The position numbers were made by a program, and so were the translations under genes. A DNA stretch of 32,142 nucleotides from a virus: positions 1-32,142 of IMG/VR virus record IMGVR_UViG_3300031999_000129; one strand, written 5' to 3'. Shown here in pieces: positions 34-30,615 of the stretch. Under the pieces are notes generated by a model, which was not told the origin of the DNA, ran no database searches, and saw only the letters and a list, made by a program, of their open reading frames with translations. The stretch's first letter is position 1; every line of letters begins with the position of its first letter.

Positions 34-609
34 CTACACGACACCGTTAGGTCTGTAGCGAGGCCGTGTTATCGGGCCACCTCTATTTTTCCACGCTCGC
101 CCAAGAACGACATTTCTGGCGTGTACAATTGAGACTCCATAATTGGTGGCGAGCTGTCGAATTGTGAGTCCACCTGCACGGTCAAGGCGAATGTTTTCGA
201 CGTCTTTGTCGTCGAGCTTCTCATTTTTTGCTTTTGCGTTTTGGACATTCCGGCGAGCTAGCGATCCGCGGGGAACCTCTTTGAGATTTGCAAGGCTGTT
301 GTCGAGCCGGTTGCCGTCGATGTGGACAATGATTTTGTTGATTGGGATTGGTCCCCTAAATGCTTTCCAAACCAATCGATGGACCGCAATTTGCCGGCCT
401 CTGTCGTTTGGACGGCTGAGGCAGACGCATTGGAACCCGGCGGAGTCTGGGCCGACCGTTTTCAGCGTACCCTGTTTTCCGCTGGTGCGTGTCAGTTCGC
501 GGCGTACCTGCCCATCGCTTGAAACGGAGTAGAGTGTTTCGTAGTCCGGAACCGGTCTCCATCTTTCCGGTGGAGGCGTTGTTGTCTTCGTGGGGAAAGA
601 CTGGTTCAT
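34..609 (-). CDS. HNH homing endonuclease with NUMOD4 domain
   Basis: 191 residues. The N-terminal region (about 14-38) carries the W-x-P-V-x-D-Y-E-x-x-Y-S-V-S-x-x-G-x-V-R-R pattern of NUMOD4, and about 77-112 matches an HNH_3 nuclease core (HRLVWKAF, then VHIDGNRLDNSLANLKEV, with H and N catalytic-type residues). Residues about 135-175 look like a helix-turn-helix (TIRQLATNYGVS) that would help recognise the target. The family makes a site-specific DNA break that promotes spread of its own gene. It is transcribed against the tail operon and sits 60 bases from the tape-measure start, a common type of location for free-standing phage homing genes. The ATG at 609 has an AAGG about six bases upstream on its own strand. 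No sign of truncation. The domain assignment is firm; activity and target site are inference. Confidence 0.88.
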   Translation of the reverse strand: MNQSFPTKTTTPPPERWRPVPDYETLYSVSSDGQVRRELTRTSGKQGTLKTVGPDSAGFQCVCLSRPNDRGRQIAVHRLVWKAFRGPIPINKIIVHIDGNRLDNSLANLKEVPRGSLARRNVQNAKAKNEKLDDKDVENIRLDRAGGLTIRQLATNYGVSIVHARNVVLGRAWKNRGGPITRPRYRPNGVV

Positions 610-5995: not shown

Positions 5996-6577
5996 ATGCC
6001 GGACGAATTTGACGATGCAGGCGATCCACGCTTCACGGCCCTGTACCGAGGGGTAGTGACGGACAACGCCGACCCTCTCCGAAATGGTAGAGTACGGGTA
6101 CGGGTTCCTGGGATGCTCGAACCACAAAGCTCGTGGGCGCTTCCGATGGCGGTCGGGGGAGGGTCCCCGGAGCGGGGGATTTTCTTTGTGCCGGACGTCG
6201 GGGCTGAGGTTGCGGTCTGGTGTCATCAGGGCGACGTCGACGAGGTGAATTATCTGCCTGGAAATTGGAGTGCTCCGGGTCAGGTAAGCCAACTCAATGC
6301 GAGAATCACTGGGAAAACGCCAGCGGAAGCACCGAAGGTCAAAGTCATCGAGACCGAACGATGGCTGATTGTTTTGGACGATTCCGCGGATACCCCAGCA
6401 ATGGTGTTGCAGGACAAAGTTTCAGGTGATGGAATCGAATACAACGGGTTGACCCGGCAGATGGTAATCCTGAGCACCGCAAGTTTGTCGATCAATTCTG
6501 TCGGTACGATAAACATCGAAGGATTGAACGTCGTTATCAACGGGCGACCTGTGTTGCCCAGCGGAGAACCGATATAA
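5996..6577 (+). CDS. Baseplate spike protein (gpV/gp5-like, OB fold)
   Basis: 193 residues. Residues about 16-90 match the OB-fold of gp5/gpV/VgrG-type spike proteins: Y-R-G-V-V-T-D-N-x-D-P-x-x-N-G-R-V-R-V-R-V-P-G, then W-A-L-P-M, F-F-V-P-D-V-G-A-E-V-A-V-W and the Y-L-P-G-N-W strand. The C-terminal part (about 130-190) has short repeating strands (INSVGTINIEG) typical of the trimeric beta-helix that pierces the membrane, and ends in a common spike tail, NGRPVLPSGEPI. The hub gene lies just upstream; TAGGAG about ten bases before the ATG serves as ribosome site. Its stop codon is at the edge of the TnpB insertion, and the insertion does not appear to have removed coding sequence. No lysozyme domain is present, unlike T4 gp5. 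Confidence 0.82.
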   Translation: MPDEFDDAGDPRFTALYRGVVTDNADPLRNGRVRVRVPGMLEPQSSWALPMAVGGGSPERGIFFVPDVGAEVAVWCHQGDVDEVNYLPGNWSAPGQVSQLNARITGKTPAEAPKVKVIETERWLIVLDDSADTPAMVLQDKVSGDGIEYNGLTRQMVILSTASLSINSVGTINIEGLNVVINGRPVLPSGEPI

Positions 6578-6760
6578 ACTACCGTCGCCTAAAGGTGACG
6601 GCTTGTAGCTGAAGGCGAACGAGAAGCGTGCACATTCGCTACCATTGGCCTGTTTACGGTGGCCCTGGCCCTGATATTCAGGGCCGCGATGTGGTCTGCG
6701 AGGCCAGCGAGCCCGCACGACCGACAGAGAAATTTGGATTGCGATTTTCGGTTGGCCTTT
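6578..6760 (-). ncRNA. Predicted omegaRNA (reRNA) of the TnpB element, approximate
   Basis: In characterised tnpB elements the guide RNA scaffold comes from the 3' part of tnpB and the right end, and its guide is the flanking DNA just beyond. Here the hairpin at 6582-6601 lies at that place. The guide would read, on the minus strand, from about 6577 downward into the spike gene. Only the hairpin and the gene context are seen; the 5' limit is arbitrary and no further structure was computed. Confidence 0.32.
6582..6601. repeat. Right-end imperfect hairpin of the TnpB element
   Basis: Eight-base arms 6582-6589 and 6594-6601 around a TAAA loop, with a single G-T wobble (6587/6596) on the + strand that becomes an A-C mismatch on the tnpB strand. 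The core 6587-6596 is identical to 7767-7776 at the other end. It overlaps the tnpB stop codon (6589-6591). Confidence 0.75.
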
Positions 6761-7701
6761 TCGATGTGCCCGCACGACGGGCATTCTCGGCTGGTGTTTC
6801 GCGGGTCGACGAAGGTCACAGGAACACCAGAAAGCCGGGCCTTGTACGAGACGAACGAATGGAGCTGAAAGAACGACCAGTTCGACAGGCGTGCCCGCTG
6901 GCGCTTCCTAGCCGTTACCCGTTCGCGAATGCCTTTGAGATTTTCGAGGGCAATACCGCGACCGGTGCGTTGAGCGTTCGACACGAGTGTCTTGCTGATC
7001 TTGTGGTTGATGTCCTTTTGATAGCGAGCTTGTTTGCCGCTGACCTTCAGCAGCTTGCGTGTGGCAGACCGCGTGCACTTGCGCTGAAGATTGCGCCTGC
7101 GATGGGCGGTCTTGCGACGGTTCTCTTCGATGGCGGCCCCCGAGTGGATATTCCCATCGCTATCGGTCGCGATGTTGACAATTCCGAGGTCCACACCGAG
7201 CACGTCCGTGGTCTTGATCAACTCGGGATCGTCGACCTCGCAAACAGCCGACAGATAGAATATGCCGCGGACAAAGAGAAGATCGGTTTCCCCCTTGCGT
7301 CGCGCGAGCAGCGCACGCTGGCGCTCTCCGCAGGCAAACGGCACGACTTGACGCCCATCGACAGTCCAGATCGAGACGCGATCATCGGATTTGAAACGCA
7401 AGATGCGGTCGTCGTAGGCAATAGCTCCCAGCAAACGAAAAGTTTTTCGGGCCTTTCGGTCGAGTTTGTAGGCGTCGGCAACCTTTTTGATGCATTGCAC
7501 GACGACCTGGGCTGTGAGCCCAGAACTAGCGCGCATGGCGTGGTATACAAGTTTGTGCAGAGCGTACTGCCCGAAAATTTTCTGGTTCCATGCGGTCGTA
7601 CTGATTTCGGTGCAAACAGCGTTAGCGTGTTCGAGTGTACACCTAAAAATTGCGTGCTGCTCCCTAGTCGGCTTGAGCTTGAGATTGACAACGAGCCGCA
7701 T
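6589..7701 (-). CDS. tnpB: TnpB, RNA-guided nuclease of IS200/IS605 family
   Basis: 370 residues, near the usual family length. RuvC-type catalytic residues are visible: D171 in G-V-D-L-G, E253 in A-L-E-N-L, and D336 in L-A-D-H-I-A-A-L-N-I. A zinc-ribbon lies between the last two (C307-x-x-C310 and C326-x-x-C329), preceded by the N-T-S-R-E-C-P-S-C-G signature. The N-terminal opening (LKPTREQHAIF) matches the family start, supporting ATG at 7701. The usual D-H-x-N-A-A is D-H-I-A-A here; the catalytic Asp is kept, so the protein looks intact. TnpB proteins cut DNA guided by an RNA from the 3' end of the element and help keep the element in the genome. It lies antisense in the tail operon; its stop overlaps the right-end hairpin. 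Whether this copy is active is inference. Confidence 0.93.
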   Translation of the reverse strand: MRLVVNLKLKPTREQHAIFRCTLEHANAVCTEISTTAWNQKIFGQYALHKLVYHAMRASSGLTAQVVVQCIKKVADAYKLDRKARKTFRLLGAIAYDDRILRFKSDDRVSIWTVDGRQVVPFACGERQRALLARRKGETDLLFVRGIFYLSAVCEVDDPELIKTTDVLGVDLGIVNIATDSDGNIHSGAAIEENRRKTAHRRRNLQRKCTRSATRKLLKVSGKQARYQKDINHKISKTLVSNAQRTGRGIALENLKGIRERVTARKRQRARLSNWSFFQLHSFVSYKARLSGVPVTFVDPRNTSRECPSCGHIEKANRKSQSKFLCRSCGLAGLADHIAALNIRARATVNRPMVANVHASRSPSATSRHL

Positions 7702-7707
7702 ATTTTT

Positions 7708-7736
7708 AGCTTACATTTCAACAATCGATTTGTCAA
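7708..7736 (-). promoter_or_regulatory. Possible promoter of tnpB
   Basis: On the minus strand there is a perfect TTGACA (+ 7731-7736), a 17-base spacer, and a weak -10, TAAGCT (+ 7708-7713, three of six). Transcription would begin close to the ATG at 7701, giving a nearly leaderless message. The -35 is strong, the -10 is not. Confidence 0.35.
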
Positions 7737-7762
7737 GAATAGAAAAGAGGAAGGGCGATCTA

Positions 7763-7780
7763 CGCTGCCTAAAGGTAGCG
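7763..7780. repeat. Left-end imperfect hairpin of the TnpB element
   Basis: Seven-base arms 7763-7769 and 7774-7780 around a TAAA loop, with the wobble at the same place in the stem (7767/7776) as in the right-end hairpin. It lies about 60 bases upstream of the tnpB start on the tnpB strand, as expected for a left-end subterminal palindrome. Confidence 0.73.
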
Positions 7781-7799
7781 AGCGTCTGCCCGAAATAAT

Positions 7800-8537
7800 T
7801 TGACCACAGGACCTCTAGCCCCAATATCTCCGTTCAACTATTTGCCTGAAGGGCAACTCTGTCCGGAGTTGTCCACGAACAGCCGTGGGCTGCGGATACG
7901 ATTTCCTGGTGGGGCAGTCATCGCCGTTCAGCTTCCAGGGCTCAACGCGCCAAAGTTGAATCTAGCTCAACAAATCATGGCGCAATCAACTGCTGCCATC
8001 GCCGCGCTCCAGCCACTGTTTGACATCGTTGGATGCCTGCTCGCCGTCGGCGAGCTTGTGAAGGCGTTGATCACGAATCCCTTCAAACTGGCAAAGGAAG
8101 CCGAAGAGGTGTTCGAGAAGCTCGGGAAGCTCGCGAGCTTCCTGCCGCTGCTCTGCATACCCGCCATGCTCTGCGATATGGTCGAGGTGCTGCTGGGCTA
8201 CCTTGAGGGAATCGCGTCGGCGATCGATGCGCTAGGCCGGCAGGAGGCACGCATCGTACGTGCGGTCGCGGTGGCACAGACGCATGGCCTAACCTTTTTG
8301 CAGCAGGGGGCGGAGTGCTGCTCGGAAATGCAGGCCGCGCAGATTCAGAATATTCGGAATGCGTCCGAGCCAATGAGTTCGCTGGTCGACCTGCTCAACG
8401 CGTTCGCTTCTTTGATCCCAGGATGTCCTCAGGTGCCCCAGGTTGGGGCCATCGATGAGGATCTCTCGAAGGCGTCAACTGAAATTCGCAAATTGATTGC
8501 TGCCTTTCGTGAGATGAAGGAGCTGATCCCAGTATGA
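7800..8537 (+). CDS. Helical tail-operon protein of unknown function
   Basis: 245 residues, family not recognised. After a short N-terminal part with beta-like segments (about 28-50), the protein is mostly long amphipathic or hydrophobic helices (about 55-165), with a cysteine-containing hydrophobic stretch (FLPLLCIPAMLCDM near 115-130) and a CC pair near 172; a charged helix ends the protein. It could be a membrane-contacting or coiled structural component. The start given is TTG at 7800, with no ribosome site in front of it; the TnpB insertion lies directly upstream and may have cut away the native start region. Translation may now begin at this or another codon. The stop overlaps the next ATG (ATGA at 8534-8537), so it belongs to the same operon as the A proteins. 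Confidence 0.7.
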   Translation: MTTGPLAPISPFNYLPEGQLCPELSTNSRGLRIRFPGGAVIAVQLPGLNAPKLNLAQQIMAQSTAAIAALQPLFDIVGCLLAVGELVKALITNPFKLAKEAEEVFEKLGKLASFLPLLCIPAMLCDMVEVLLGYLEGIASAIDALGRQEARIVRAVAVAQTHGLTFLQQGAECCSEMQAAQIQNIRNASEPMSSLVDLLNAFASLIPGCPQVPQVGAIDEDLSKASTEIRKLIAAFREMKELIPV

Positions 8538-9673
8538 TTTACATACGAAACGTCAAGACGCCAATATATGGGAGTGACAGTGCTCACTACAAGTTTTCGA
8601 CGTGGTTTCATCGGGAGGCGCTACTTGCGGGCCGGTGGACGGAAGTGGCGAATAATGCGGATGCAGCCTGGGCCTCAAATTATTCGTCTTCGTACTCTGA
8701 CCTGTATGTGGATGCCAGCCAACAAGGGAAGGTTTTCCGAGCGGCTGGTTTTTCCACACCGCCTGTGAATTCTGCATTGACATTGATGGATCCATTGAAC
8801 GATTCCAACTGCTTCATCGCGAACATTATCGGCTACGACACGAAGACCCTCTTTATTGATATGTCGAGCATTGCAAGGCCGATGGTTTCCGCGACTGGAC
8901 TTATTGGAAAGGTTCATGTTTTTGGTCAGACGACTTTGTTGACGGCTGGGGCGTGGACTGTTCTTGCTGCTCCTGGGACAGAGGCTGATAGATTTCAGAT
9001 TCGATTGGAAGTTGGAACAACTGCGAACAGGCCATGGATCTATGCGTACCCAAAGGGTGATTACTCGACGTTCAAGAGCATGACAGGTGGGTTCACTTGG
9101 GCCTACGGAACGACAGAGAGGCGCTCTCTTATCAATGCCGACATTGATGGGGAGAATTTCATGTTGTTCGACTGGAACGGTTATACGAGTACAGCGATCT
9201 ACGGACCATACATTTGGTGCGGTGGGCGACTCACGGACACCCCTATCGAAGACGTGTATCCCTACTTCATAGCAACTAACTCAAGCACGTCGTGGGTTGG
9301 AACAATACCAGGCTGGGATTGGTTCCAGTGGCAAGTGTATATGCTCGATCAGTTTTCTAAGCCTGTTGCAGCTTACATCGAAGGGCCTAAGTACATGAGT
9401 GATCTCACGTACACTTCTGGGATTTGGCACGTAGACAGATGGTTCAACTCTCATGGACGTACAGCTCGACAGTATCCATTTGTTGTTGTTAGTGATGTAC
9501 CGAGCGGTGGTTATAAAAGGGGGAGGTTTCCTTGGCGTACTGTTCACGAACAGTGGGGAGATTGGTTGATTGCTGACGCTCAAGGAGAGACTCGCACGGC
9601 TCCTGGAAAGTTACTTGTGTCAAGCGCAGGCATCACAGGCTGTGATATTTATCCCCCACTGATGATTTTCTAA
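8534..9673 (+). CDS. Paralogue A1, putative tail/receptor-binding structural protein
   Basis: 379 residues, one of three paralogues in the window (with 9684-10862 and 13099-14265). Shared features are the opening M-I-x-I-R-N-x-x-T-P, a W-x-x-R-E-x-L-L segment near 25-32, W-T-E-x-A-N-N-x-D-A-A-W at about 35-47, D-L-Y-V-D near 57, Q-T-T-L-L-T-A-G-A-W near 135, a N-A-D-I-D-G-E strand, and a C-terminal G-x-x-R-G-R-x-P-W followed by a G-C-D-x-Y-x-P-L ending. The pattern is beta-rich and aromatic. It is the most divergent copy: the central region reads W-I-Y-A-Y-P-K-G-D-Y where the others have V-T-F-D-C-L-P-K-G-D-Y. No known family was recognised. Position between spike and wedge genes, and copy number, suggest an exposed virion component. 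ATGA overlap with the upstream gene sets the start. Confidence 0.78.
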   Translation: MIYIRNVKTPIYGSDSAHYKFSTWFHREALLAGRWTEVANNADAAWASNYSSSYSDLYVDASQQGKVFRAAGFSTPPVNSALTLMDPLNDSNCFIANIIGYDTKTLFIDMSSIARPMVSATGLIGKVHVFGQTTLLTAGAWTVLAAPGTEADRFQIRLEVGTTANRPWIYAYPKGDYSTFKSMTGGFTWAYGTTERRSLINADIDGENFMLFDWNGYTSTAIYGPYIWCGGRLTDTPIEDVYPYFIATNSSTSWVGTIPGWDWFQWQVYMLDQFSKPVAAYIEGPKYMSDLTYTSGIWHVDRWFNSHGRTARQYPFVVVSDVPSGGYKRGRFPWRTVHEQWGDWLIADAQGETRTAPGKLLVSSAGITGCDIYPPLMIF

Positions 9674-9683
9674 GGAGGTTTTC

Positions 9684-10862
9684 GTGATTCACATACGAAA
9701 CTGCGTGACTCCGATGTCTGGCTCTGAAAGTTGTCTGTACAGGTTCATCCCTTGGATTTGGCGAGAGGTGCTGCTTCTTGGTGGCTGGACGGAGATCGCC
9801 AACAATGGAGACGCAGCCTGGTCAGTTTCTACAAACAACATTCTTGAGGTATTCACGGATCTGTACGTAGACCCCGCAGATCCAACGCTTGTCAAAAAGG
9901 CTTCTGGTTCTTTCAATTCAGCGCACGCGGGGAGAATACTGTCGCTGTTTGATGCGACGAATCCGGCCAACGTGGTGATGGCGAATATCATTTCGGTTCC
10001 CTCCTCACAGACGCTCCGATTGGATGCCTGGAATCTTGGTAAGCCGTGGGTAACGGCTTCCTCGTTGACAGGGAGGGTTCATATCGGAGGCCAGACGACG
10101 CTCCTCACAGCGGGTGCCTGGTCGGTTCTTCAATCTCCTGTTGGTAGTCCACCATTTCAGATTCGCATCACATGTTCGTCAACGGCTAACCGTGTGACGT
10201 TTGACTGTCTACCTAAGGGTGACTACGCAACCACGAAGCTTTACACGGCGGCGTTCAATCAGAACATTTCTACTGATTGGAGAGCTTTGAGACTCAACGC
10301 TGACATAGACGGTGAGTTGTTCATGCTGTGGTGTGAGCTATTCACTTCAGCCAGTGCGAACGCTGGTTCCTGGTATGGCATGGCTGGTGGTTCATTGACA
10401 GATGTTGACGTTACGGACTTGTACCCGAGGTTCATTACTGAGTGCTGTGATGGTCTGTCTGTTGGCTGGTATTACGATAACTCAAGAGGATTTTGTACCA
10501 ATCTCAACATGCTAGATTTTACCAATTCCCCAATAACCGGGTATGTGGAGACCAGAAAATTATGTTCTGACTCTTCCGCTGGTGTCAATAGCGTATTTCG
10601 GGGCGGGTACCCATATTCTGCGTATTGGGCGAAGGTAGCTGGAAATAAGCTTCCGGTTGTGAATCCGTGGGTTGTGCTTGCGGACACCGTGAATGGGGGG
10701 TTTCGCCGAGGCAGGCTTCCATGGAAGCTCATCCATGATTATTGGGAAGATTGGAGGTTCATGGATTCTGGAGGGCTTTTGAGATCCTCTCCTGGCTCTA
10801 TATTGCTCCCGGCGGCAGGAAATCTTGGGTGTGATAAGTACGCCCCATTGACGGTTTTGTAG
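9684..10862 (+). CDS. Paralogue A2, putative tail/receptor-binding structural protein
   Basis: 392 residues. Much closer to A3 (13099-14265) than to A1: residues about 136-250, including G-Q-T-T-L-L-T-A-G-A-W (136-146), L-N-A-D-I-D-G-E (204-211) and G-G-S-L-T-D-V-D (235-242), are almost the same in both. Two DNA blocks (10284-10325 and 10370-10410) are identical base for base to A3. Starts at GTG 9684, with AAGGAGG (9672-9678) overlapping the previous stop, an ideal ribosome site. It is the first gene of the first A-B-C cassette; the B1 gene follows after nine bases. Structural role is inferred from context; no enzymatic motif was seen. Unusually rich in Trp and Cys for a virion protein. Confidence 0.78.
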   Translation: MIHIRNCVTPMSGSESCLYRFIPWIWREVLLLGGWTEIANNGDAAWSVSTNNILEVFTDLYVDPADPTLVKKASGSFNSAHAGRILSLFDATNPANVVMANIISVPSSQTLRLDAWNLGKPWVTASSLTGRVHIGGQTTLLTAGAWSVLQSPVGSPPFQIRITCSSTANRVTFDCLPKGDYATTKLYTAAFNQNISTDWRALRLNADIDGELFMLWCELFTSASANAGSWYGMAGGSLTDVDVTDLYPRFITECCDGLSVGWYYDNSRGFCTNLNMLDFTNSPITGYVETRKLCSDSSAGVNSVFRGGYPYSAYWAKVAGNKLPVVNPWVVLADTVNGGFRRGRLPWKLIHDYWEDWRFMDSGGLLRSSPGSILLPAAGNLGCDKYAPLTVL

Positions 10863-10871
10863 GAGTAGAAG

Positions 10872-12569
10872 ATGCGGCATTGGATTACAGATGTACAATT
10901 GGTGACTCAAGGTCAATACGACTCGGGATCTCAAACAAGTGCTTGGTATGTGTTTCACTTTCTCAGACTTTTGGATTGGAAGATCGTCGCCGAGTGCGAT
11001 AACTCGAGTATCACAGTTTGTAGCCACATAACCGATGGCTGCATGGATGACGCGGGAGTCACTAACTGGTCAGTTGTCGGAACAGCAACCCGAGCGAAGA
11101 GCGACGTACAGAAGTATTCTGGTTATCGAAGCCTGACCTTTACAACGGCGGCGACGGGCGATGGAGTTCAGAGCGCATCTTTCGTTTCTATGGAAGCTTC
11201 CAAGGCGTACGTATTCACCGTTTGGGTTTGGAACAATTGCGGCCACCAGCTCAAGGTGTATATGGACAACGGGAATGGTAGTTACGTGCTTGCGGGGGCT
11301 GTATCGGACAACGGTGGCGTCTGGACAAAATATCAATTCGGCTACACGTCACACTCTACGGTGACTGCCTGCAAATTCAAGATCGTTTCGGAGGATGGAA
11401 CAGTTTCAGCCGGTCAGGTGTACGTGGATTCTTGTTACACATATAGAAGCTTGTTTGAGGCTGCGATTTGCGGGAGTGGTACGGACGGCGTAATAGAGGC
11501 AGGTAACAACAAGTTTTCCTCGGCTAGCTACACCTTCACAAGTGCTGACATCTTGGCAGCATATAGAGTGGTGTGCTTTGTCGATCTTGTGAATGAGGGG
11601 AATAGTGGAATTTACAAGATTATTGGCCTTGATGGGACCAAGGCAATTCTGGACATACGCGATGATGGTACTTCTTTCTTGACAGCAGTAGCGGGTCTCA
11701 CTTTTCGTGTTCTTGACAGAGCGGATATTCCGAATGGTCTAACATCTCCAGGAGTAGGCTTTTGCCTCGAATCTCCGCATGAGTCAAAGTGGCGTTGGAA
11801 GTTTCGGTGTGCGTATGGCTCATGGGGATACGGACAAAATATTGGATGCGGTGCTTGGGCGTCTTCCCCGGAAGACTGTGCCCTAAACATGGATACATTT
11901 CAATTTTATCCTCTTGAGCAGAGGTCTACATCGCGGTATTTCATGCCTGATACTGGAGGTGTTACTGGGAGTCCAACGGGGGGATACGGTTTGCCATGGA
12001 CGAATACCGTGGTACAAGTAGCACATAAATTCTATTTTTTGACAGATGGTTTGACGTACATTTTTGGGGTGCATCGCAGAATATCGGCAAATGTTCAGGG
12101 CGCGTGGCTTATGGGGTTTTTAGGGGATGCCTACATGGAATTCAAGGACACTTTTGTACATTTACAACAGAAACTTGGAACAGCCACTGGCGCCGATAGC
12201 TTACAGTTTTCCACTGCTGATTGTTGTTGGTCCTACTACGGATCTGGATTTTCCCCAACGCGCAATGGTAGGTCTGTACAGGCGAGTTTGGGATCTGCTG
12301 GATTTGGGACAGCAGCGGGGGTTACAGAATACATGACGAACGCCAAGGCAAATCCTTGGAGCGGCGTCGAGCCTATTCGACCATTTTTTGTCTTCTTAGA
12401 TTGGCCAGGGAACTTAGGAGCTTTTTCTGTGATGGAATCTACCAATCAGAATTTTGGGCATTGTCGAGCAAACTTGCCTTTGTGGGCACCATTTGGTGGC
12501 TCAAGAGATTGGTTCCACACGAAGAACGGGTTATGTATTGCCTGGCATGGAAGAGAGGTAGCGCCCTAA
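10872..12569 (+). CDS. Paralogue B1, putative carbohydrate-binding tail protein
   Basis: 565 residues, exactly the length of B2 (14275-15972). The opening M-R-H-W-x-T-D-x-x-L is followed by a conserved S-A-W-Y-x-F-x-F-L-R segment and E-C-D-N-x-S-I-T-V-C. Residues about 60-190 look like a jelly-roll module of the CBM4/9 type: N-W-S-V-V-G-T-A-T-R-A-K-S, then G-Y-R-S-L-T-F, G-D-G-V-Q-S-A, a V-W-V-W-N-N-C-G strand and a final Q-V-Y-V-D. The C-terminal section includes Y-M-T-N-A-K-A-N-P and G-H-C-R-A-N-L-P-L-W, which echoes the R-G-R-L-P-W near the end of the A proteins, so A and B may share a C-terminal fold. AGGAG precedes the ATG. Its stop overlaps the C1 start. Carbohydrate binding is an inference from the module pattern. 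Confidence 0.77.
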   Translation: MRHWITDVQLVTQGQYDSGSQTSAWYVFHFLRLLDWKIVAECDNSSITVCSHITDGCMDDAGVTNWSVVGTATRAKSDVQKYSGYRSLTFTTAATGDGVQSASFVSMEASKAYVFTVWVWNNCGHQLKVYMDNGNGSYVLAGAVSDNGGVWTKYQFGYTSHSTVTACKFKIVSEDGTVSAGQVYVDSCYTYRSLFEAAICGSGTDGVIEAGNNKFSSASYTFTSADILAAYRVVCFVDLVNEGNSGIYKIIGLDGTKAILDIRDDGTSFLTAVAGLTFRVLDRADIPNGLTSPGVGFCLESPHESKWRWKFRCAYGSWGYGQNIGCGAWASSPEDCALNMDTFQFYPLEQRSTSRYFMPDTGGVTGSPTGGYGLPWTNTVVQVAHKFYFLTDGLTYIFGVHRRISANVQGAWLMGFLGDAYMEFKDTFVHLQQKLGTATGADSLQFSTADCCWSYYGSGFSPTRNGRSVQASLGSAGFGTAAGVTEYMTNAKANPWSGVEPIRPFFVFLDWPGNLGAFSVMESTNQNFGHCRANLPLWAPFGGSRDWFHTKNGLCIAWHGREVAP

Positions 12570-13090
12570 TGTCCTGTTCCTGGTATCCTTTCAATGTGGA
12601 GTATCAAGACGTTCCTTCTGGTAGAATTACAGGAATAGGGCAACAAGATGGTATCTTTTCCCTAACATATTTAGAACCCCCACCACCGAATTCTGGGACA
12701 GGTGAGCTTGTACCAGAGGCCATCGAGTGGACAGATTTATTCACGATTCCAGATGCAGAAGGTCCAATAGTGGAGTATCTGTCTCCCGAGGCCATGGCTA
12801 CGCTCCTTTCGGAGGATCCGATTGTTTTTACCGTAACCGATCCGACTGGAAACCTGAATCAAATAGTTGTGGCTGCGATTCTGCACACAACAGGTGTGCA
12901 TGAAATAGTGCATGACGGAGTATCGTTTGCTCAGAATTATTCCAGTTTGTCTTTCAGGGTTGAGATTGCACAGGGATTTGAGTATACCGTGCGAAGGAAC
13001 GCTGGTTGGCCACTTGGGACGCGAGTTAGTATGCGTGTGTGGGCTGTTGATACTGGAGGAAATACAGAAATAGCTCCAGGGTCAGTGTGA
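12569..13090 (+). CDS. Paralogue C1, small Ig-like tail protein
   Basis: 173 residues starting at the ATG that shares one base with the B1 stop (TAATG at 12567-12571). The first 45 residues are proline and glycine rich; residues about 50-170 form an Ig-like or fibronectin-like beta domain, with P-I-V-x-x-x-x-P near the start, D-P-I-V-F-T-V-T-D-P-T-G-N-L-N, an I-V-H-D-G-V-S-F strand, a F-E-Y-T-V-R-R-x-x-G-W-P motif and the closing V-W-A-V-D-T-x-G-N. The C2 protein (15972-16475) has the same domain. A long upstream extension of this frame lies inside B1 and is not used. Probably a structural partner or cap of B1, since the two genes are coupled; function is not known. Confidence 0.73.
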   Translation: MSCSWYPFNVEYQDVPSGRITGIGQQDGIFSLTYLEPPPPNSGTGELVPEAIEWTDLFTIPDAEGPIVEYLSPEAMATLLSEDPIVFTVTDPTGNLNQIVVAAILHTTGVHEIVHDGVSFAQNYSSLSFRVEIAQGFEYTVRRNAGWPLGTRVSMRVWAVDTGGNTEIAPGSV

Positions 13091-13098
13091 GGTAATTC

Positions 13099-14265
13099 AT
13101 GATTTACATACGAAATTGCGCGACCCCGATATATGGGTCTGACAGTTGTCTGTACAGGTTCATCCCGTGGATCTGGCGTGAGGCTCTACTGTGTGCTCGC
13201 TGGACGGAGAGAGCGAATAACTCGGACGCCGCCTGGGCAGGCAACGTGATTGCGACGCTCACGGACTTGTACGTCAACCCAGCCAGCCCCGGTATTGTGA
13301 GGACCGCAGGCGGTAATGTTTCGGCTCACGCTGGGCGCACGCTAACACTCATCGACCCAACGAATGACGCGAACTGTGTTATTGCCAACATCAAAGCTGT
13401 TGTGGATTCGACAACGCTATTGTTAGACGATTGGAATCTGCCGAAACCTTGGGTCACAGCTTCTGGTCTCACCGGACGAATTCATCTGACAGGGCAGACA
13501 ACGCTACTCACAGCGGGTGCCTGGACAGTCATGGAGGCTCCCGTAGGAAGCCCACCTTTTCAGGTCAGGATAACGTGCTCATCAACGGCCAACCGTGTCA
13601 CCTTTGACTGTCTACCGAAGGGGGACTACACGGGGGCGAAGACGTATACAGCAGCTTTCAACCAGGACCATACCAGTTCCTTGAGGGCTTTGAGACTCAA
13701 CGCTGACATAGACGGTGAGTTGTTCATGTTATGGCACACACCTTTCAGTTCAACAGGTGTGAATAACGGTATCTGGTATGGCATGGCTGGTGGTTCATTG
13801 ACAGATGTTGACGCCACGGACTTGTACCCTCGATTCGTTACTGAGTGCCTGGTGGCTCAGGCGTATGGTTGGGAAGTCGGGTACGCTCGGGCATTCTGTA
13901 ATCAACTCCTTATGTTGAGCTACACAGATACTCAGGTTTCCGCGTACACAGAGCACATGAAATCCTTTTCTGATACTTCTGGCGTAGACGCGAATCAACT
14001 ATTTTCTGGCTCTCAACCGTTGGCGCCGCGATGGCGGCAGAACAACAATAAGCTTGGAGTAGCGTTTCCGTATGTGGCCATGGATGACGTTGTCATGGGA
14101 GGTTACAGACGCGGAAAGCTGCCCTGGAGGTTGATAAACAAAAATTGGGATGCTTGGAGGCGCTTAGATGTAGCGTCTACTATACGTATACCTCAGGGGT
14201 CAATCGTTCTACCTCACGCGGGGATGCTAGGCTGTGACAAGTACGCTCCCTTGATTGTTTTGTAG
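13099..14265 (+). CDS. Paralogue A3, putative tail/receptor-binding structural protein
   Basis: 388 residues, the second-cassette counterpart of A2. Same opening and core motifs as A2; the N-terminal segment S-C-L-Y-R-F-I-P-W-I-W-R-E is the same in both. Differences concentrate in about 45-115 and 215-330, that is in the middle and second half, while 135-250 is nearly unchanged. GAGGT precedes the ATG. It begins eight bases after the C1 stop and is followed nine bases later by B2, reproducing the A2-B1 spacing. The hypervariable-looking stretch after residue 250 is where a binding specificity could differ. No known family recognised. Confidence 0.78.
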   Translation: MIYIRNCATPIYGSDSCLYRFIPWIWREALLCARWTERANNSDAAWAGNVIATLTDLYVNPASPGIVRTAGGNVSAHAGRTLTLIDPTNDANCVIANIKAVVDSTTLLLDDWNLPKPWVTASGLTGRIHLTGQTTLLTAGAWTVMEAPVGSPPFQVRITCSSTANRVTFDCLPKGDYTGAKTYTAAFNQDHTSSLRALRLNADIDGELFMLWHTPFSSTGVNNGIWYGMAGGSLTDVDATDLYPRFVTECLVAQAYGWEVGYARAFCNQLLMLSYTDTQVSAYTEHMKSFSDTSGVDANQLFSGSQPLAPRWRQNNNKLGVAFPYVAMDDVVMGGYRRGKLPWRLINKNWDAWRRLDVASTIRIPQGSIVLPHAGMLGCDKYAPLIVL

Positions 14266-14274
14266 GAGAGGAAA

Positions 14275-15972
14275 ATGCGTCATTGGCTTACTGATATAAG
14301 CTTGTACGGTACTGGTGACGGTGGCTGTTGTACCAGTGCTTGGTACATGTTCAACTTTTTGCGAGTTCTTGGTTGGAAAACAATCGCAGAGTGCGATAAC
14401 ACGAGTATAACGGTTTGCAGTCATATCCCAGACGGCTGCATGGATGATTCCGAGGTTACAAACTGGACTGTTGTTGGAACAGCAACCCGAGCGAAGAGTA
14501 CAACTCAGTTGTTTGCCGGTTATCGTTGTTTGACGTTCACTACGGCGGCGACTGGTGACGGTGTGCAGAGCGCCGTGTTCACGTCGATGGCGACTTCAAA
14601 GCCCTATGGGCTGTCATTGTGGGTATGGAACAACTGCGGCCATGCGCTTAGTGTATACGTGAATAACGGAAGCGGATCTTATGTTTTGGCTGGGTCTGTT
14701 CCTCACAACGCAGGTGTTTGGACGAGGTATCAATTCAGTTACACCTCACATACGGTTGTCACTGCCTGTCGTTTCAAGATAGTAGATGAGGCTGGGACCG
14801 TTGGAGTTGACCAGGTCTACGTGGACCAGGTCTATACGGCACAACCGTCATACGAAACAGCGATTCGTGGGAGTGGTACGGATGGTGTTGTGGAGGCTGG
14901 CAATAACAAGTTTTCCTCCGCTAGTTACTCCTTCACCGATGCGGACGTTACAGCTCTTCGTGCTGTTTGTTTTGCTGATTTGGTAAATGAGGGTAACAGC
15001 GGGATATACAGAATCATTGGCAGGGATGGTGCGAAGGCTGTTCTTGACATCAAAGATGACGGAACCAACTATCTAGTGGCGGCAACAGGTTTGACATTTC
15101 GTGTTATTGATAAAGCCGATATTCCTTCACTAGATAGCGGCGCAGGTTTCTGTATTGAGTCTCCACATTCCACTCATTGGCGATGGAAATACAGAATGAG
15201 TAATTTAGGATGGTACGGTGGCAATTGGGGTCAGGGCAAGTGGGCCTCCTCTCCAGATCCGTGTTCTGTAAATGTGGATACATTTCAATTCTACAAGCAA
15301 CATAGGTCCACCGCTCGGACACTCGTCCCTGATACAAGCAGCATCAATGGTTACTTCGACACTTCGCCACCGGCTGGGTGGGCATGGAACTTCTTTTGTT
15401 TGGGTGGGATACGAGGCTCGGCCTCTCCTAGTAGGTTTTACGCTGTAACAGATGGTGAGACGTATATTTTTGGGTTGCATCGAGCAACCTATCCGGCTGC
15501 CTGGTTCATGGGGTTTCTTGGTGATGCGTATCGGGATTTTGGAGATACATTTTTTCACTTTCAGGAAATTTATGATGGTGCGAATCTGTCGCTCAGCCAG
15601 GGCGACACACTACATTTTGCGAGCGCAATTCGTTCCTTCAACGCTTACGGGGTTGGTTTTGGGAAGAGAGGCCTTGGCATGAGGGCTTGTTTGGGGTCAG
15701 CGGGGTGGGGTACAACAACCGGGGTGACTGAGTACATGACGAACGCCAAGGCAAATCCCTTCGGCGGGAAAGAGATGATTCGCCCTTTCATGGCATTCCT
15801 GGATGTAGACGGGGTTGGGGGGGAGTTCGCCACGATTGAAGCTACCAATCACGACTTCGGGCACTGTCGGTCGAACCTCACACTATGGAATCATTTTGGG
15901 ACGAACAAAGAATGGTTCCACGCGAAGTCTGGCCTTTGTATCGCCTGGCACGGGCGAGGAGTACAACCCTGA
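14275..15972 (+). CDS. Paralogue B2, putative carbohydrate-binding tail protein
   Basis: 565 residues, equal in length to B1. The CBM4/9-like module (about 58-188) is well conserved with B1, as is the following segment with G-S-G-T-D-G-V-V-E-A-G-N-N-K-F-S-S-A-S-Y. The region about 290-470 is more different and contains unrelated-looking loops, then similarity returns at Y-M-T-N-A-K-A-N-P and G-L-C-I-A-W-H-G-R near the end. DNA blocks 14476-14498 and 15733-15758 are identical to B1 at 11079-11101 and 12330-12355. AGGAG seven bases before the ATG. The stop overlaps the C2 start (TGATG). Function inferred as for B1: an exposed, possibly glycan-binding virion part. Confidence 0.77.
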   Translation: MRHWLTDISLYGTGDGGCCTSAWYMFNFLRVLGWKTIAECDNTSITVCSHIPDGCMDDSEVTNWTVVGTATRAKSTTQLFAGYRCLTFTTAATGDGVQSAVFTSMATSKPYGLSLWVWNNCGHALSVYVNNGSGSYVLAGSVPHNAGVWTRYQFSYTSHTVVTACRFKIVDEAGTVGVDQVYVDQVYTAQPSYETAIRGSGTDGVVEAGNNKFSSASYSFTDADVTALRAVCFADLVNEGNSGIYRIIGRDGAKAVLDIKDDGTNYLVAATGLTFRVIDKADIPSLDSGAGFCIESPHSTHWRWKYRMSNLGWYGGNWGQGKWASSPDPCSVNVDTFQFYKQHRSTARTLVPDTSSINGYFDTSPPAGWAWNFFCLGGIRGSASPSRFYAVTDGETYIFGLHRATYPAAWFMGFLGDAYRDFGDTFFHFQEIYDGANLSLSQGDTLHFASAIRSFNAYGVGFGKRGLGMRACLGSAGWGTTTGVTEYMTNAKANPFGGKEMIRPFMAFLDVDGVGGEFATIEATNHDFGHCRSNLTLWNHFGTNKEWFHAKSGLCIAWHGRGVQP

Positions 15973-16475
15973 TGGCTACCGTTTGGGGTCCATTGGCCAT
16001 GTCCTATCTCGACCTGCCACCACCTATTGTGGAAGAGACAATAGAGTTTCCATTGGCCATGTCCTACCTCGACTTGCCTCCTCCTATTGTGGAAGAGGCG
16101 GAAGTTGTACCAGAGGCAATCGAGTGGGTAGCTCCGCTTGCATCTGCTGACGTCATCAGTCCAGTTGTCACCTATATTTATCCTGGAGAACTAGACACGT
16201 TACGAGTGGCCGACCCGATCATTTTTTCTGTAGTAGACTCGACTGGAAACTTGAATCGTATACTTGCGGCTGTGGAGATTATACCAACGGGTATTCAGGA
16301 ATTGGTTCATGATGGGCTATCGTTTACATCCATGTACCGATTGGGATCGTCAAGAACTGCTATTGAGAATGGGTTTGAATACGTGGTGCGAAGGCGCCAT
16401 GGGTGGCCCACTGGGACACAAATTCGAGTACGCGTTTGGGCGGTTGATTCCGCTGGAAATATTGAAGGCGCATAG
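15972..16475 (+). CDS. Paralogue C2, small Ig-like tail protein with internal repeat
   Basis: 167 residues starting at the ATG that shares one base with the B2 stop (TGATG at 15970-15974). Residues 7-46 are two copies of a 20-residue unit, P-L-A-M-S-Y-L-D-L-P-P-P-I-V-E-E plus four variable residues. Then comes V-V-P-E-A-I-E-W, also present in C1 as L-V-P-E-A-I-E-W, and the Ig-like domain (about 65-165) with D-S-T-G-N-L-N-R, E-L-V-H-D-G-L-S-F, F-E-Y-V-V-R-R and V-W-A-V-D-S-A-G-N. C1 lacks the repeat, so the N-terminal stalk differs between the copies while the domain is kept. The gp25-like gene follows after nine bases. Confidence 0.72.
   Translation: MATVWGPLAMSYLDLPPPIVEETIEFPLAMSYLDLPPPIVEEAEVVPEAIEWVAPLASADVISPVVTYIYPGELDTLRVADPIIFSVVDSTGNLNRILAAVEIIPTGIQELVHDGLSFTSMYRLGSSRTAIENGFEYVVRRRHGWPTGTQIRVRVWAVDSAGNIEGA
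15990..16109 (+). repeat. 60-base in-frame tandem repeat in C2
   Basis: Two adjoining 60-base units (about 15990-16049 and 16050-16109). The second copy differs from the first mostly at third codon positions in the first 48 bases, keeping the 16 residues PLAMSYLDLPPPIVEE unchanged; the last four residues differ (TIEF against AEVV). Confidence 0.9.
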
Positions 16476-16484
16476 GAGAAATAC

Positions 16485-17024
16485 ATGAGCATGGATTCGA
16501 CATGGAGCACTCCACCAATTCCTGCGGAACCAACTCCTCCGACGGTTGGCGTCCCCGTTTTGCCGCAGGTGAGCGAGGGGCCGGCACTCATTGGAGGCGG
16601 AGATTTTCTTGGAAGCGGCCTTACCCGTCCATTCCGCCGGGACCGCAAGCTTGATTTTGCGTCGGCCAATGGGGTGCGCTTGGTTGCCTCGTGCGTAGGG
16701 CAGGTGCTTGGTACGCGTTCGGCGGCTGGACGATTCCAAGGGGAGCTTCCCTGGAGGGATGAGTTTGGCTCGTCGTTGTACATGGTACGCCATCGAGCGA
16801 ACGACGACACCACGAGGGAATTGGCTAGAATCGGGGTCGTTGAGGCGCTTACACGCTGGGAGCCTAGGGTTCAGGTGACGAACGTGGAGATCATCGCGGA
16901 GGACGTCGAGGGCTTGGGAGAGGTAGCAATTGGCGTCCGCGCTCAATTTGACATCATCTCGAGGAACAGTGCCAGCAACGCTGTGTTGATGCCGGGCATT
17001 GAGGCGACGATCCCCCTTGGATAA
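16485..17024 (+). CDS. Baseplate wedge protein (gpW/gp25-like)
   Basis: 179 residues. Residues about 40-178 resemble the GPW/gp25 family: G-x-G-L-x-R-P-F-R-R-D, then a long helix, G-E-L-P-W-R-D-E-F-G-S (the most typical motif of the family), H-R-A-N-D-D-T-T, an A-L-T-R-W-E-P-R segment and a final strand. The first 40 residues are a proline-rich extension absent in T4 gp25 and P2 gpW, which are shorter. In contractile systems this protein is the sheath-initiating wedge component. AGGAG seven bases before the ATG. The J-like gene follows, the standard W-J order. This and the next gene are the strongest evidence for a contractile tail. Confidence 0.88.
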   Translation: MSMDSTWSTPPIPAEPTPPTVGVPVLPQVSEGPALIGGGDFLGSGLTRPFRRDRKLDFASANGVRLVASCVGQVLGTRSAAGRFQGELPWRDEFGSSLYMVRHRANDDTTRELARIGVVEALTRWEPRVQVTNVEIIAEDVEGLGEVAIGVRAQFDIISRNSASNAVLMPGIEATIPLG

Positions 17025-17052: not shown

Positions 17053-18564
17053 ATGACGTCATTGCTCGGGTCCAACCTCACGTATTCCGAGAAAGATTTT
17101 GATAGTCTTCGTGTGCGTCTCATAAACCTGGCGCGGTCAGCGTTCCCCGAGTGGACCGATTTCAACGTCGCAAATTTTGGCAACCTTCTTCTTGAGTTGT
17201 TCGCGTTCGTTGGGGACGTGCTGTTGTTTTACCAGGACAACCAAGCCCGCGAATCGAGAATCAGCACCGCGCAACTTCGGAAGAATATGCTGGCCCTGAC
17301 AAAGCTCATTGGGTACTTGCCGAGGGGATCGGCTGCGGCGACTGCAAATCTGACCGTCACCCTTGCAGCCGTGCCAGTCGGTGACGTTCTCATTCCGGCC
17401 CGGTCGACATTCCGCACGGAGCAGATTACGACGCCAGTTATTTTTCAGACCTTGCTTGCGACAACGATTCCTGCTGGAACCAATCCACCCGTAGCGACCA
17501 TCCTTGTCGAGAATAGCGCGTTCAGCCTACAGGTTTTCGTATCGACTGGGCTGCCGAATCAGGAATATATTCTGAACGATTACCCGTATCTCGACAGCTC
17601 AGCGAGGGTATCTGCAGACGGAGTGTACACCCAGGTTGACAACTTTCTTGATTCGCTGTCCACGAGCGCCCACTTTACCGTGACCGTTGACGAGAACGAC
17701 CGAGCTACAATTCGGTTTGGAAACGGGATTTCCGGTAGCATCCCTGTCGGAAACATTTCGGTGCTTTACAAGACAGGTGGGGGCGTGAACGGGAACGTGG
17801 AGAGCAACTCCATAGTAAGGGTGGATGTTCCATACAAAGACGAGTTTGGAAATGCTGTGGTGATGTCCGTTACGAATCCGGCAGCAGCGAGCAACGGGTT
17901 CAATCGAGATGGGCTCGAGCAGATTCGGATTTACGGGCCTGAGAGTTTGCGCACGTTGACGAGGACGGTCAGCCGTGAGGATTACGAGATCAACGCCCGG
18001 CGCGTGTCGGGTGTCAGCCGCGCCTTGATGCTCACCTCGAATGAGCGTCCTGGGATTCTAGAAAACCAGGGCATGCTCCATGTGATCCCAACTGGGGGTG
18101 GTCTCCCGACGCAGCTACTCAAGGATGCTGTACTCACGTCGGTTACAGAGACCTACCCAAACACGTTGACGTTCCTTGTGAGCGTGGAGGATCCTGAATA
18201 TCTGCCAGTCGACGTGCAGGCGACCGTGTTTTTGTCGGCTGGCCAGACGGCGAGTGTCGTTTCCGCTCGAATTCTCGCAAATTTGACGTCCTTTTTTGCG
18301 ATCGAGACGTACGACGGGAGCCCGAACACGACCGTAAACTTTGGCTACTATATGCAGGACGAGAATGGCGACCCAATCAATGAGATCGCCTGGTCGGACG
18401 TGTTCAACGTAATTCGTGACACGACCGGTGTTCGGAAGATTGGGGACACCCTCGGGTCCTTGCTGTTGAACGGGGAACGTAGCGACGTCTCGATTGGGGT
18501 ACAGCAATTTCCAACTCTCGGAAACGTCGTGTTGCTCAACGGCTCGACGGGGAGCGCGCTGTAG
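17053..18564 (+). CDS. Baseplate assembly protein J-like (gp6/gpJ family)
   Basis: 503 residues. Typical J-family features are visible: an opening helix D-F-D-S-L-R-V-R-L-I, a conserved F-x-E-L-F-A-F-V-G-D-V-L-L-F-Y-Q-D-N near 50-70, the helix L-I-G-Y-L-P-R-G, a domain with R-F-G-N-G-I-S-G-S-I-P near 220, G-G-G-V-N-G-N-V near 240, and T-R-T-V-S-R-E-D-Y-E near 310. These proteins build the wedge ring of the baseplate. The gene is preceded by the gp25-like gene and its stop overlaps the next start by one base (TAGTG). Length is greater than P2 gpJ (about 300 residues), closer to the longer injection-system versions. Confidence 0.9.
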   Translation: MTSLLGSNLTYSEKDFDSLRVRLINLARSAFPEWTDFNVANFGNLLLELFAFVGDVLLFYQDNQARESRISTAQLRKNMLALTKLIGYLPRGSAAATANLTVTLAAVPVGDVLIPARSTFRTEQITTPVIFQTLLATTIPAGTNPPVATILVENSAFSLQVFVSTGLPNQEYILNDYPYLDSSARVSADGVYTQVDNFLDSLSTSAHFTVTVDENDRATIRFGNGISGSIPVGNISVLYKTGGGVNGNVESNSIVRVDVPYKDEFGNAVVMSVTNPAAASNGFNRDGLEQIRIYGPESLRTLTRTVSREDYEINARRVSGVSRALMLTSNERPGILENQGMLHVIPTGGGLPTQLLKDAVLTSVTETYPNTLTFLVSVEDPEYLPVDVQATVFLSAGQTASVVSARILANLTSFFAIETYDGSPNTTVNFGYYMQDENGDPINEIAWSDVFNVIRDTTGVRKIGDTLGSLLLNGERSDVSIGVQQFPTLGNVVLLNGSTGSAL

Positions 18565-22873: not shown

Positions 22874-24706
22874 ATGCAGAAATATGATTGGTTTGAAGGT
22901 CAGAAGGTTAAGAATACGGAATTGAATGGAGCTTTTGATGCGGCCGAGGAGGCCTTCAAACGGCTGACACTCGACACTGGAATTGTGGGGATTACGTCTG
23001 GCGGAGCAGTTTCGGAAAATGCTGGTTCTGCAAATCTGACCGTGGACGTTGCAGGACCGGTATCGATTTACGATCAGGCAGGCCAGAGAATCTCGTGGTC
23101 TGGAACTCAGGATGTCATTTGTTCGGTCGATGAGAATTCAAGCTCGACAGCGGTTGTGAGCCCTGGCAACGAGCGGTGGCTTTCGATCTTTGCGAAGTTC
23201 AAGCAAAACCTGACGGATCCACGGCTCGACCGACAAGGTGACACGGTATACTTTGACGTCGCCGAATCGTTTGAGATCCATGTGGGGATGGGCGCGGAGG
23301 CTGTAATTCCAACTGCGGCGCGGCCGTTTCTTCGAGGCGACGAAATTCTGTTGGCTGACGTTCGTCTCATTTACGGACAGACGCAGATTTTCAACGCATC
23401 GATTTCGACAACACGTCGTCAGTGGGCGATTAAGACGGTTTCTGGACTTACTCAAATTGCAGTTGGGACGATGGAGGAAGCGGTCGAGGCGTTGAGTGTT
23501 GCGTCGGGAATCAACTACGCTGGAGGTCCAGCGTGGCACGATACAACGACGAATCCTGCGGCGTCAGTTGAAGCGCAGCTTGACAAGGTTGTGACGGATC
23601 TTGTTGCCAATGCGGGTTCGGATAGGATTGGTTCTGCTTCGGTCATCAACAGATTTGGGTCGTTGAGCATTGGGTCTGTTTTTGATCAGCTCACAACTCT
23701 TTCTGGTTACGTGAACACACTGCAGATGCAAGCCAAGCTGCTGAGAGCTAGGAATTGGCAGCATGTTGATAGCGGAACGTTTGTTGGCGGAAGTGTGATG
23801 TCCCTTCTTTATTCTTCGACCAAGAACTTGTATTACGCCGTTAGCGTTGATGGCGTAGCCTGGAAAAGCGAGAGTCCGCTTGGACCGTGGGCAGGAACTT
23901 CTGCTTTCGCCGGAATTGTAGACAATTGTAATGCACTTTGTGCAAATGGTGGAACGCTGTTCATGGGTGGGTGCGACATGTCGGTATCAGCTAGTCTCGA
24001 GTCGTATGATACTGCGACCGATACATGGACAGCGCGTACCCCAACTGGGATGAATCATCCGGCAGATCGTATCGTTGATATTATTCATGATGTTGGAAAC
24101 GGATGGCTGGTGGCAGTCGGATGGGGAACATCCCCAGCAACTGCGTACATCATTCGAGCTTCTGGCCTAGGTACTACGTGGGTTGCTGCGTCAACAAGTC
24201 TTACAGGCATTACCAAACTTCATGCCCTTGCCTATACAACTGGAATTCTGATTGCTGTTGGCCAGACAGCCACCGCTGGAAGAATATTGAAATCCGTGGA
24301 TGGCGGAGACAATTGGACGGATGTCACTCCGGTTTCACCTCCTTCTGTTTTCGCGTCTGTTACTTGGGATAGCGATTCTCAGAAGTTTTACGCAACCGAT
24401 TGGTCAGCAGGTGTTTGGTCCTCTAATTCAACAGGCACAACGTGGACACTTCTGAGGACATGGACGTCTGTGAATCCAACTGGGGTAGCATGTGACGGAG
24501 TAGGAACGATTGTGGTGTCGGGGTACGGCGGTAGTCCAGGTCCAGGTGGGTTTTTGGTGTCTGTCGACCAGGGTGTGTCGTGGGTACACTTCCACGAGAC
24601 TGTGTCAGATCCAACCATAGGGATTAAATACACGAATGGGCATTTCTTCGCGTTGATTACGCTTGGCCTTGCGGTTTCTTTGGGCACAACTGCTCCAAGT
24701 ATTTAG
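22874..24706 (+). CDS. Tail fibre protein with Asp-box (BNR-like) repeats
   Basis: 610 residues. The opening (Y-D-W-F-E-G-Q-K-V) and residues 1-190 resemble an N-terminal attachment part, with strands such as N-E-R-W-L-S-I-F-A-K-F and L-A-D-V-R-L-I-Y-G. A helical linker with coiled-coil-like character lies at about 195-290. The C-terminal 320 residues have four Asp-box-like units of the S-x-D-x-G-x-x-W type: R-A-S-G-L-G-T-T-W, S-V-D-G-G-D-N-W, S-N-S-T-G-T-T-W and S-V-D-Q-G-V-S-W, which indicates a beta-propeller related to BNR/sialidase-like folds. Enzyme activity is not implied, since the repeat alone is structural. It follows the gpI-like gene directly, the usual place for a fibre. Likely host-recognition protein. 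Confidence 0.75.
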   Translation: MQKYDWFEGQKVKNTELNGAFDAAEEAFKRLTLDTGIVGITSGGAVSENAGSANLTVDVAGPVSIYDQAGQRISWSGTQDVICSVDENSSSTAVVSPGNERWLSIFAKFKQNLTDPRLDRQGDTVYFDVAESFEIHVGMGAEAVIPTAARPFLRGDEILLADVRLIYGQTQIFNASISTTRRQWAIKTVSGLTQIAVGTMEEAVEALSVASGINYAGGPAWHDTTTNPAASVEAQLDKVVTDLVANAGSDRIGSASVINRFGSLSIGSVFDQLTTLSGYVNTLQMQAKLLRARNWQHVDSGTFVGGSVMSLLYSSTKNLYYAVSVDGVAWKSESPLGPWAGTSAFAGIVDNCNALCANGGTLFMGGCDMSVSASLESYDTATDTWTARTPTGMNHPADRIVDIIHDVGNGWLVAVGWGTSPATAYIIRASGLGTTWVAASTSLTGITKLHALAYTTGILIAVGQTATAGRILKSVDGGDNWTDVTPVSPPSVFASVTWDSDSQKFYATDWSAGVWSSNSTGTTWTLLRTWTSVNPTGVACDGVGTIVVSGYGGSPGPGGFLVSVDQGVSWVHFHETVSDPTIGIKYTNGHFFALITLGLAVSLGTTAPSI

Positions 24707-29604: not shown

Positions 29605-29606
29605 AA

Positions 29607-30470: not shown

Positions 30471-30493
30471 GCTAAATTCTCCTGCCCATCTCA

Positions 30494-30522
30494 AGAATAA
30501 TTCAAAATGGCGTGACGGTCAA
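30494..30522 (-). promoter_or_regulatory. Minus-strand sigma70-like promoter of the VWA unit
   Basis: On the minus strand TTGACC (+ 30517-30522), 17-base spacer, TATTCT (+ 30494-30499). It lies 24 bases before the ATG at 30470. Confidence 0.6.
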
Positions 30523-30549
30523 GTAAATTTGACACGGTTGAGAAAATTG

Positions 30550-30578: not shown

Positions 30579-30615
30579 CAAATTCGAGAGCGCAATTTTT
30601 CGAGGGAGGCTGACG

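Follow-up and report, generated by a model that had tools for sequence, protein, structure and literature searches.

A repeated three-gene cassette beside the baseplate wedge gene gp25: a probable modular host-attachment locus in an uncultured contractile-tailed phage

The IMG/VR virus record IMGVR_UViG_3300031999_000129 (positions 1-32,142, analysed here as a whole and called the window) is a metagenome-type virus fragment of 32 kb that carries an array of a repeated three-gene cassette, A-B-C, inserted between a conserved tail gene (p7800) and the gene for the baseplate wedge protein gp25. We read this region, with a probability of roughly two in three, as a modular, stackable host-attachment locus of a contractile-tailed (myovirus-type) phage. 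What can be read directly from the genomes is the homology of the cassettes, their copy numbers, the replacement of alleles, the positions of the crossovers and the conserved neighbourhood of C and gp25. Much of this evidence comes from comparison of the window with a sister phage (IMGVR 3300031885_000008, 67 kb; two sister contigs were compared). The complete array has the order A1-A2-B1-C1-A3-B2-C2, with these features:

8534-9673 (+): A1, an extra upstream A paralogue of 379 amino acids (aa); BLASTP match to A3, E 3e-95
9684-10862 (+): A2, the A gene of cassette 1, 392 aa, with a GTG start and an AGGAGG ribosome site; 61% identical to A3
10872-12569 (+): B1, the B gene of cassette 1, 565 aa, with a CBM_4_9 domain at residues 58-173 (Pfam)
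12569-13090 (+): C1, the C gene of cassette 1, 173 aa, a variable linker followed by an immunoglobulin (Ig)-like domain; its start overlaps the B1 stop; 44% identical to C2 (C-family alignment)
13099-14265 (+): A3, the A gene of cassette 2, 388 aa; 61% identical to A2
14275-15972 (+): B2, the B gene of cassette 2, 565 aa, with CBM_4_9 at residues 59-169 (Pfam and homology to B1)
15972-16475 (+): C2, the C gene of cassette 2, 167 aa, a variable linker followed by an Ig-like domain nearly the same as that of the sister (alignment with the sister)
15989-16108 (+): two tandem units of 60 nucleotides (nt) in the C2 linker, PLAMSYLDLPPPIVEE, 82% alike; the linker of the sister C differs

The original prediction held that one set of three proteins is encoded twice, with its gene order kept, at 9684-13090 and at 13099-16475. 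Open reading frame (ORF) calls and direct reading agree with it, and the junctions match as described: each cassette has a nine-base gap between A and B and a one-base overlap between B and C (TAATG in one, TGATG in the other), and B is 565 aa long in both. The alignments that it had called for proved collinear from end to end, not limited to short shared motifs, with identities of 61% for A2/A3 (393 columns, E 2e-171), 60-63% for B1/B2 (579 columns, E 0) and 44% for C1/C2 (167 residues, E 2e-47). At the DNA level the two units are 63% identical over their whole length, at a near-constant offset of ~3.4 kb. Judged from these alignments, the resemblance of cassette to cassette is far above chance expectation. 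A1, which lies directly 5' of the cassettes, is a third and older A paralogue, ~42% identical to A2 and A3.

The sister phage carries a different allele of this region in an almost unchanged genome. Its flanking proteins are 97-100% identical to those of the window, and a single A-B-C cassette follows its A1. That cassette is about as distant from each window cassette as these are from one another (A' 48-53% and B' 58-66% identical; C' with a divergent linker and a nearly identical Ig part). Nucleotide identity is near 100% up to position 8695 in A1, falls to ~86% in the rest of A1 and to ~60% over the cassettes, and is back at 100% from position 16105 inside C2, continuing into gp25; between these points, the window's exchanged block is 7.4 kb long and the sister's ~4 kb. 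The left crossover lies at codon 54 of A1: a single nucleotide difference precedes 8695 and ~14% of positions differ after it (A1 is 93% identical overall), such that the first 53 codons are conserved backbone and the remainder is exchanged block. At the right crossover stands a short conserved sequence:

16105-16127 (+): 23-nt block TTGTACCAGAGGCAATCGAGTGG (VPEAIEW codons), at which identity with the sister jumps from ~50% to 100%

This block is conserved in all three C genes, with a copy in C1 (12708-12730) that is identical at 22/23 positions. To its left, the first 50 codons of C2 and the sister C are 44% identical in protein sequence; the Ig part is 98-100% identical. The sister C thus joins a C1-like linker end (GELVPEAIEW) to the Ig domain of C2. 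By this comparison, the Ig domain of C2 belongs to the backbone and that of C1 does not, and everything from codon 54 of A1 to the point in the last C where the linker gives way to the Ig domain is exchanged. Among the genes compared with the sister, the sole other strongly diverged one is p22874 (22874-24706; 610 aa), which is 41% identical, with neighbours at 91-98%. Its C-terminal part weakly resembles the F510_1955 glycosylhydrolase family, a Kelch-like match was also found, and its product is a probable tail fibre.

Viral contigs searched directly with B1, cultured phages searched with A, B or C and genome contigs searched with B gave no matches; relatives were therefore reached through alignments of A and C and through gpJ. 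A profile of C run against 195 Myxococcota genomes gave a single stray weak match. The survey was anchored on gpJ (80 viral and 49 genome loci fetched), and the slot between p7800 and gp25 was scored in 57 viral and 33 chromosomal loci, both borders being required for the viral ones. In the window, the borders and the anchor are:

7800-8537 (+): p7800, a conserved tail protein of 245 aa, left border of the slot; 100% identical (aa) in the sister, with a homologue 5' of gp25 across relatives
16485-17024 (+): gp25/gpW-like baseplate wedge protein, right border of the slot; Pfam GPW_gp25 E 5e-9; 100% identical (aa) in the sister
17053-18564 (+): gpJ, a Baseplate J-like wedge protein, the survey anchor; Pfam Baseplate_J E 4e-9; PHROG baseplate wedge E 1e-31

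The slot was empty in 40/57 viral loci, held an insert including C in 16 and an insert lacking C in one; it was empty in 32/33 chromosomal contigs. C adjoined gp25 in 14 of the 15 viral loci that carried other cargo, versus 2/42 that did not (Fisher p 2e-10, kinship ignored), and also stood directly before gp25 in five further loci in which no p7800 was detected. In every locus that has C, 93-166 nt separate the end of C from the gp25 domain. The cargo that accompanies it varies: A-B-C genes (L009/L010), proteins of the GW family (L008, L024, L025, L064, L068, L073, L087) or collar-fibre, BNR/tail-fibre, beta-helix or LamG-like proteins (L055, L034, L026, L054). The search for relatives with other copy numbers, proposed in the original prediction, thus recovered one-cassette relatives and also locus L073, with the order GW-[GW-Ig]-GW-[Ig] and two Ig parts 42% identical, which is by its layout a two-unit array independent of the window's. 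The presence of two cassettes in the window and of one in the near-identical sister suggests that the slot is a plug-in site where phages change or stack attachment proteins.

Two side observations come from the same survey. The GW family occurs at a second tail position, outside the slot, in L020 (5960-6934), between the homologues of p19492 and of the gpI-like p21098. The Myxococcota chromosomes among the loci (L092-L130) carry gpJ-gp25-p7800 clusters with an empty slot (prophage or tailocin), and more than one gpJ locus is present in Myxococcus xanthus AM003, M. qinghaiensis and M. dinghuensis.

The one recognizable domain in the cassette proteins is a carbohydrate-binding one. CBM_4_9 matches B1 (Pfam E 6e-9, 36.8 bits) and the sister B (36.0 bits) above the curated cut-off of 25.9 bits, and B2 just under it (E 5e-5, 24.0 bits); the remaining ~450 residues of B match no family, and neither does A. 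As whole proteins A, B and C match no tail family in Pfam, PHROGs, NCBIfam or PDB, PDB sequence searches with their profiles gave no match, and a literature search found no description of this locus, all in keeping with the original view that the cassette is not a described tail module. C consists of a proline-rich variable linker followed by a C-terminal domain with a weak resemblance to bacterial Ig domains, and in these family searches it matches no known tail-fibre assembly or chaperone family. A and B have a short common domain of borderline significance (A1/B2 E 6e-4; profile E 2e-4). A test for common ancestry of the GW family with A or B gave no support for it. The surface-binding role put forward in the original prediction is likely, given CBM_4_9 in B, the allelic replacement and the fibre, lectin and enzyme genes in the slot of relatives; that functional guess is plausible and has been strengthened. 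For A and B, we infer membership of the receptor-binding class from the genetics of the locus together with CBM_4_9.

The history of the cassettes is older than their tandem arrangement might imply. The proportion of synonymous sites that differ (pS) is 0.64-0.82 between any two cassettes, near saturation, except between C2 and the sister C with their common Ig domain; the flanking genes differ from those of the sister by only 0.04-0.14 synonymous substitutions per site (dS). The cassettes therefore predate the split of the sister genomes. Of the original claim of duplication, the repeated three-gene unit stands, and a simple recent tandem duplication does not. The unevenness of divergence, read there as the mark of different binding specificities, is likewise real at the protein level; because synonymous sites in the conserved segments are mostly near saturation, these segments reflect purifying selection, not recent origin. 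One tract is the exception:

10284-10410 in A2 and 13687-13813 in A3 (+): candidate gene-conversion tract, with exact runs of 42 and 41 nt

In codon shuffles, the second-longest exact run reached 41 nt in 0/5000, and the tract is a probable gene conversion. The CBM domains of B1 and the sister B are also unusually close (91% aa identity, pS 0.34-0.43); on these figures, both tracts represent later exchange.

An old in-place duplication in the window lineage, followed by divergence of the copies and by loss of one copy from the sister through recombination, would be compatible with an attachment function, and we hold it to be possible though doubtful. It would account for the closer kinship of A2 and A3 (61%, versus 50-53% to the sister A'), for the conversion tract common to the tandem copies and for the sister C', whose C1-like linker end and C2 Ig domain are as expected of a deletion hybrid. 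Simple deletion cannot give the sister allele, however, because neither A' nor B' is a mosaic of its two window counterparts (A2/A3 and B1/B2) and their synonymous sites are near saturated against both window copies, with the CBM tract of B1 and B' an exception to a near-saturation found almost everywhere else. Trees with L009 as outgroup, because the L009 branch is long, do not separate acquisition of a second cassette from ancient duplication.

In the mechanism that we favour, the slot would take up cassettes of surface-binding genes. A and B would be adhesin or receptor-binding subunits shown at the baseplate, with B contributing the carbohydrate-binding CBM_4_9 domain, and C would be a small adaptor, most likely joining these adhesins through its proline-rich linker and Ig-like domain to the wedge around gp25; the overlapping stop codon of B and start codon of C suggest translational coupling. 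Alleles would be swapped as a block through homologous recombination, with one crossover near the start of A1 and the other where linker meets Ig domain in the last C, both in conserved sequence, so that the Ig 'plug' beside gp25 stays while specificity changes. With its two full cassettes, the window allele probably displays two different A-B-C assemblies on the virion, or mixed ones. The location of the proteins on the virion, ligand binding, the physical contact of C with the baseplate and the presence of two specificities are all inferred from sequence. More tentatively, C might be a general plug, an Ig-like adaptor with a fixed place beside gp25 that docks unrelated adhesin families (A-B, GW, fibres, enzymes) on one and the same baseplate; complete adhesin-plus-plug units would then be added in series, and copy number would be a tunable host-range trait.

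Several observations weigh against an attachment locus of this kind. CBM_4_9 can serve assembly instead of recognition, and the Ig assignment of C lies below Pfam cut-offs (Big_7, E 0.005-0.0075, in the C proteins of relatives only; no Pfam Ig match for C1 or C2). The AlphaFold models, built from 6 (A) and 4 (B) sequences, are poor because there are too few homologues: the mean predicted local distance difference test (pLDDT) score is 44 for A and 31 for B, and in A3 only residues 50-130 reach ~70. Foldseek matches of these models have template modelling (TM) scores of ~0.15, and their top ranks (endosialidases, fibres) were not used as evidence. The survey loci are not phylogenetically independent; one carries cargo without C (L052) and two carry C alone (L056, L077). 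Nor is the cargo all adhesin, since some slots contain lysis genes: Amidase_2 enzymes lie between fibre genes and C in L055 (7846-8475) and L059 (5108-5722), each preceded by a small probable holin.

We also considered that A, B and C are structural parts of the baseplate, such as a wedge-linked ring or collar, duplication of which would give a hetero-oligomer and leave the receptor unchanged. Their position among baseplate genes, the conservation of C next to gp25, the 93% identity of A1 in the sister and the weakly detectable domain common to A and B all fit such a role. The slot, however, is empty in most viral and nearly all chromosomal relatives, so that the cassette genes are dispensable for a baseplate, and few genes diverge as much as these between near-identical sisters; their absence from most relatives and their place among the fastest-changing genes of the region make a purely structural role unlikely. 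The array could in principle be an assembly artefact, produced by head-to-tail joining of two alleles from a phage with one cassette, given that the window is a metagenome contig and the sister has one cassette. We consider this highly improbable because the C1/A3 junction is not repeat-mediated (it does not lie in sequence common to the flanks that would need to be confused, C1-gp25 and A1-A3) and because L073, from another metagenome, has a similar layout; in addition, the 3' end of C1 is its own, and a normal short spacer separates it from A3. Host-attachment genes are the usual targets of diversity-generating retroelements, and a dedicated mutator of this kind might have produced the diversity. 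The differences span whole genes, synonymous sites included, and the signature of a retroelement target, adenine-specific variation in one short repeat together with a reverse transcriptase, was not found (no reverse transcriptase was present among the window proteins scanned), leaving this the most remote of the alternatives.

The surroundings of the array identify the type of element. Upstream lie the genes for a tape measure protein (670-3270), a tube-like protein, a hub protein and a spike, and downstream lie gp25, gpJ and a TIGR02242/gpI-like protein; the gene order, from tape measure through hub and spike to gp25 and gpJ, is that of a contractile-tail baseplate locus. The sister record carries terminase (E 2e-9) and sheath (E 2e-8, just under its curated cut-off) genes, and the element is for this reason most likely a phage rather than a tailocin. 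Relatives of gpJ at 50-58% identity are found mainly in Myxococcota contigs, a placement that suggests Myxococcota as the host phylum without proving it.

Other genes of the window lie outside the array. A TnpB gene (OrfB_IS605/Cas12f1-like TNB; 6589-7701, minus strand) sits between the spike gene and p7800 in an insertion at ~6575-7797, with no TnpA seen adjoining it; in the sister, the spike-p7800 junction is uninterrupted at this site. A plus-strand ORF at 6628-7803 was rejected as a gene, as it lies opposite the TnpB gene, which the sister is without. An HNH endonuclease gene with a NUMOD4 motif (34-609, minus strand) directly precedes the tape measure gene; the sister also has an HNH-NUMOD4 gene, there separated from the tape measure gene by one more ORF. 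The phage also encodes a MoxR-VWA-like set at 28213-31815, made up of a DUF2201 metallopeptidase/VWA-like protein, a DUF6744 protein and an AAA ATPase.

Most of what is known of multi-receptor phages comes from the tailspike clusters of enterobacterial phages, and phages with several independent receptor-binding proteins include phiK64-1 and SP6/K1-5. Such proteins are also found in phi92-like phages (PMC11414711). The phage described here probably displays more than one specificity as these phages do; they use unrelated spikes or fibres, whereas the two units found here are paralogous cassettes from a family not named before. In the Ackermannviridae (kuttervirus) cluster, the tailspikes TSP1-TSP4 form a branched complex on Gp10-like XD domains, block exchange of their genes by homologous recombination at conserved 5' ends has been shown, and gene duplication has been proposed (PMC11414711). 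The present locus is similar in gathering several putative receptor-binding genes at one baseplate-linked site and in exchanging them as a block at conserved ends; dedicated domains join the binders there, a part that we propose for C. A, B and C gave no sequence match to Ackermannviridae-type spikes in Pfam, PHROGs, NCBIfam or PDB, nor any sequence sign of a branched complex. The two also differ in what is conserved, namely the 5'/N-terminal part of each spike gene in the Ackermannviridae and, here, the start of A1 together with the Ig domain encoded by a small gene of its own, and in that whole three-gene cassettes are repeated here. Alteromonas phages A5 and V22 have common host-recognition modules of a tail fibre plus a chaperone (PMC10579305), and in both cases a small partner gene moves between phages along with the gene of the binder; unlike that partner, C adjoins gp25, is Ig-like and matches no chaperone family, and its unit is tandemly repeated. 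Near-identical sisters with one and two cassettes offer a natural experiment on the effect of an extra attachment cassette, and the rule that C stands next to gp25 provides a sequence marker for adhesin loci whose binders match no known family. Together, these comparisons identify the locus, as far as its sequence tells, as a form of the known multi-receptor attachment locus, built from a previously unnamed cassette family, and point to a different solution to multi-receptor attachment in an uncultured lineage with chromosomal relatives in Myxococcota.

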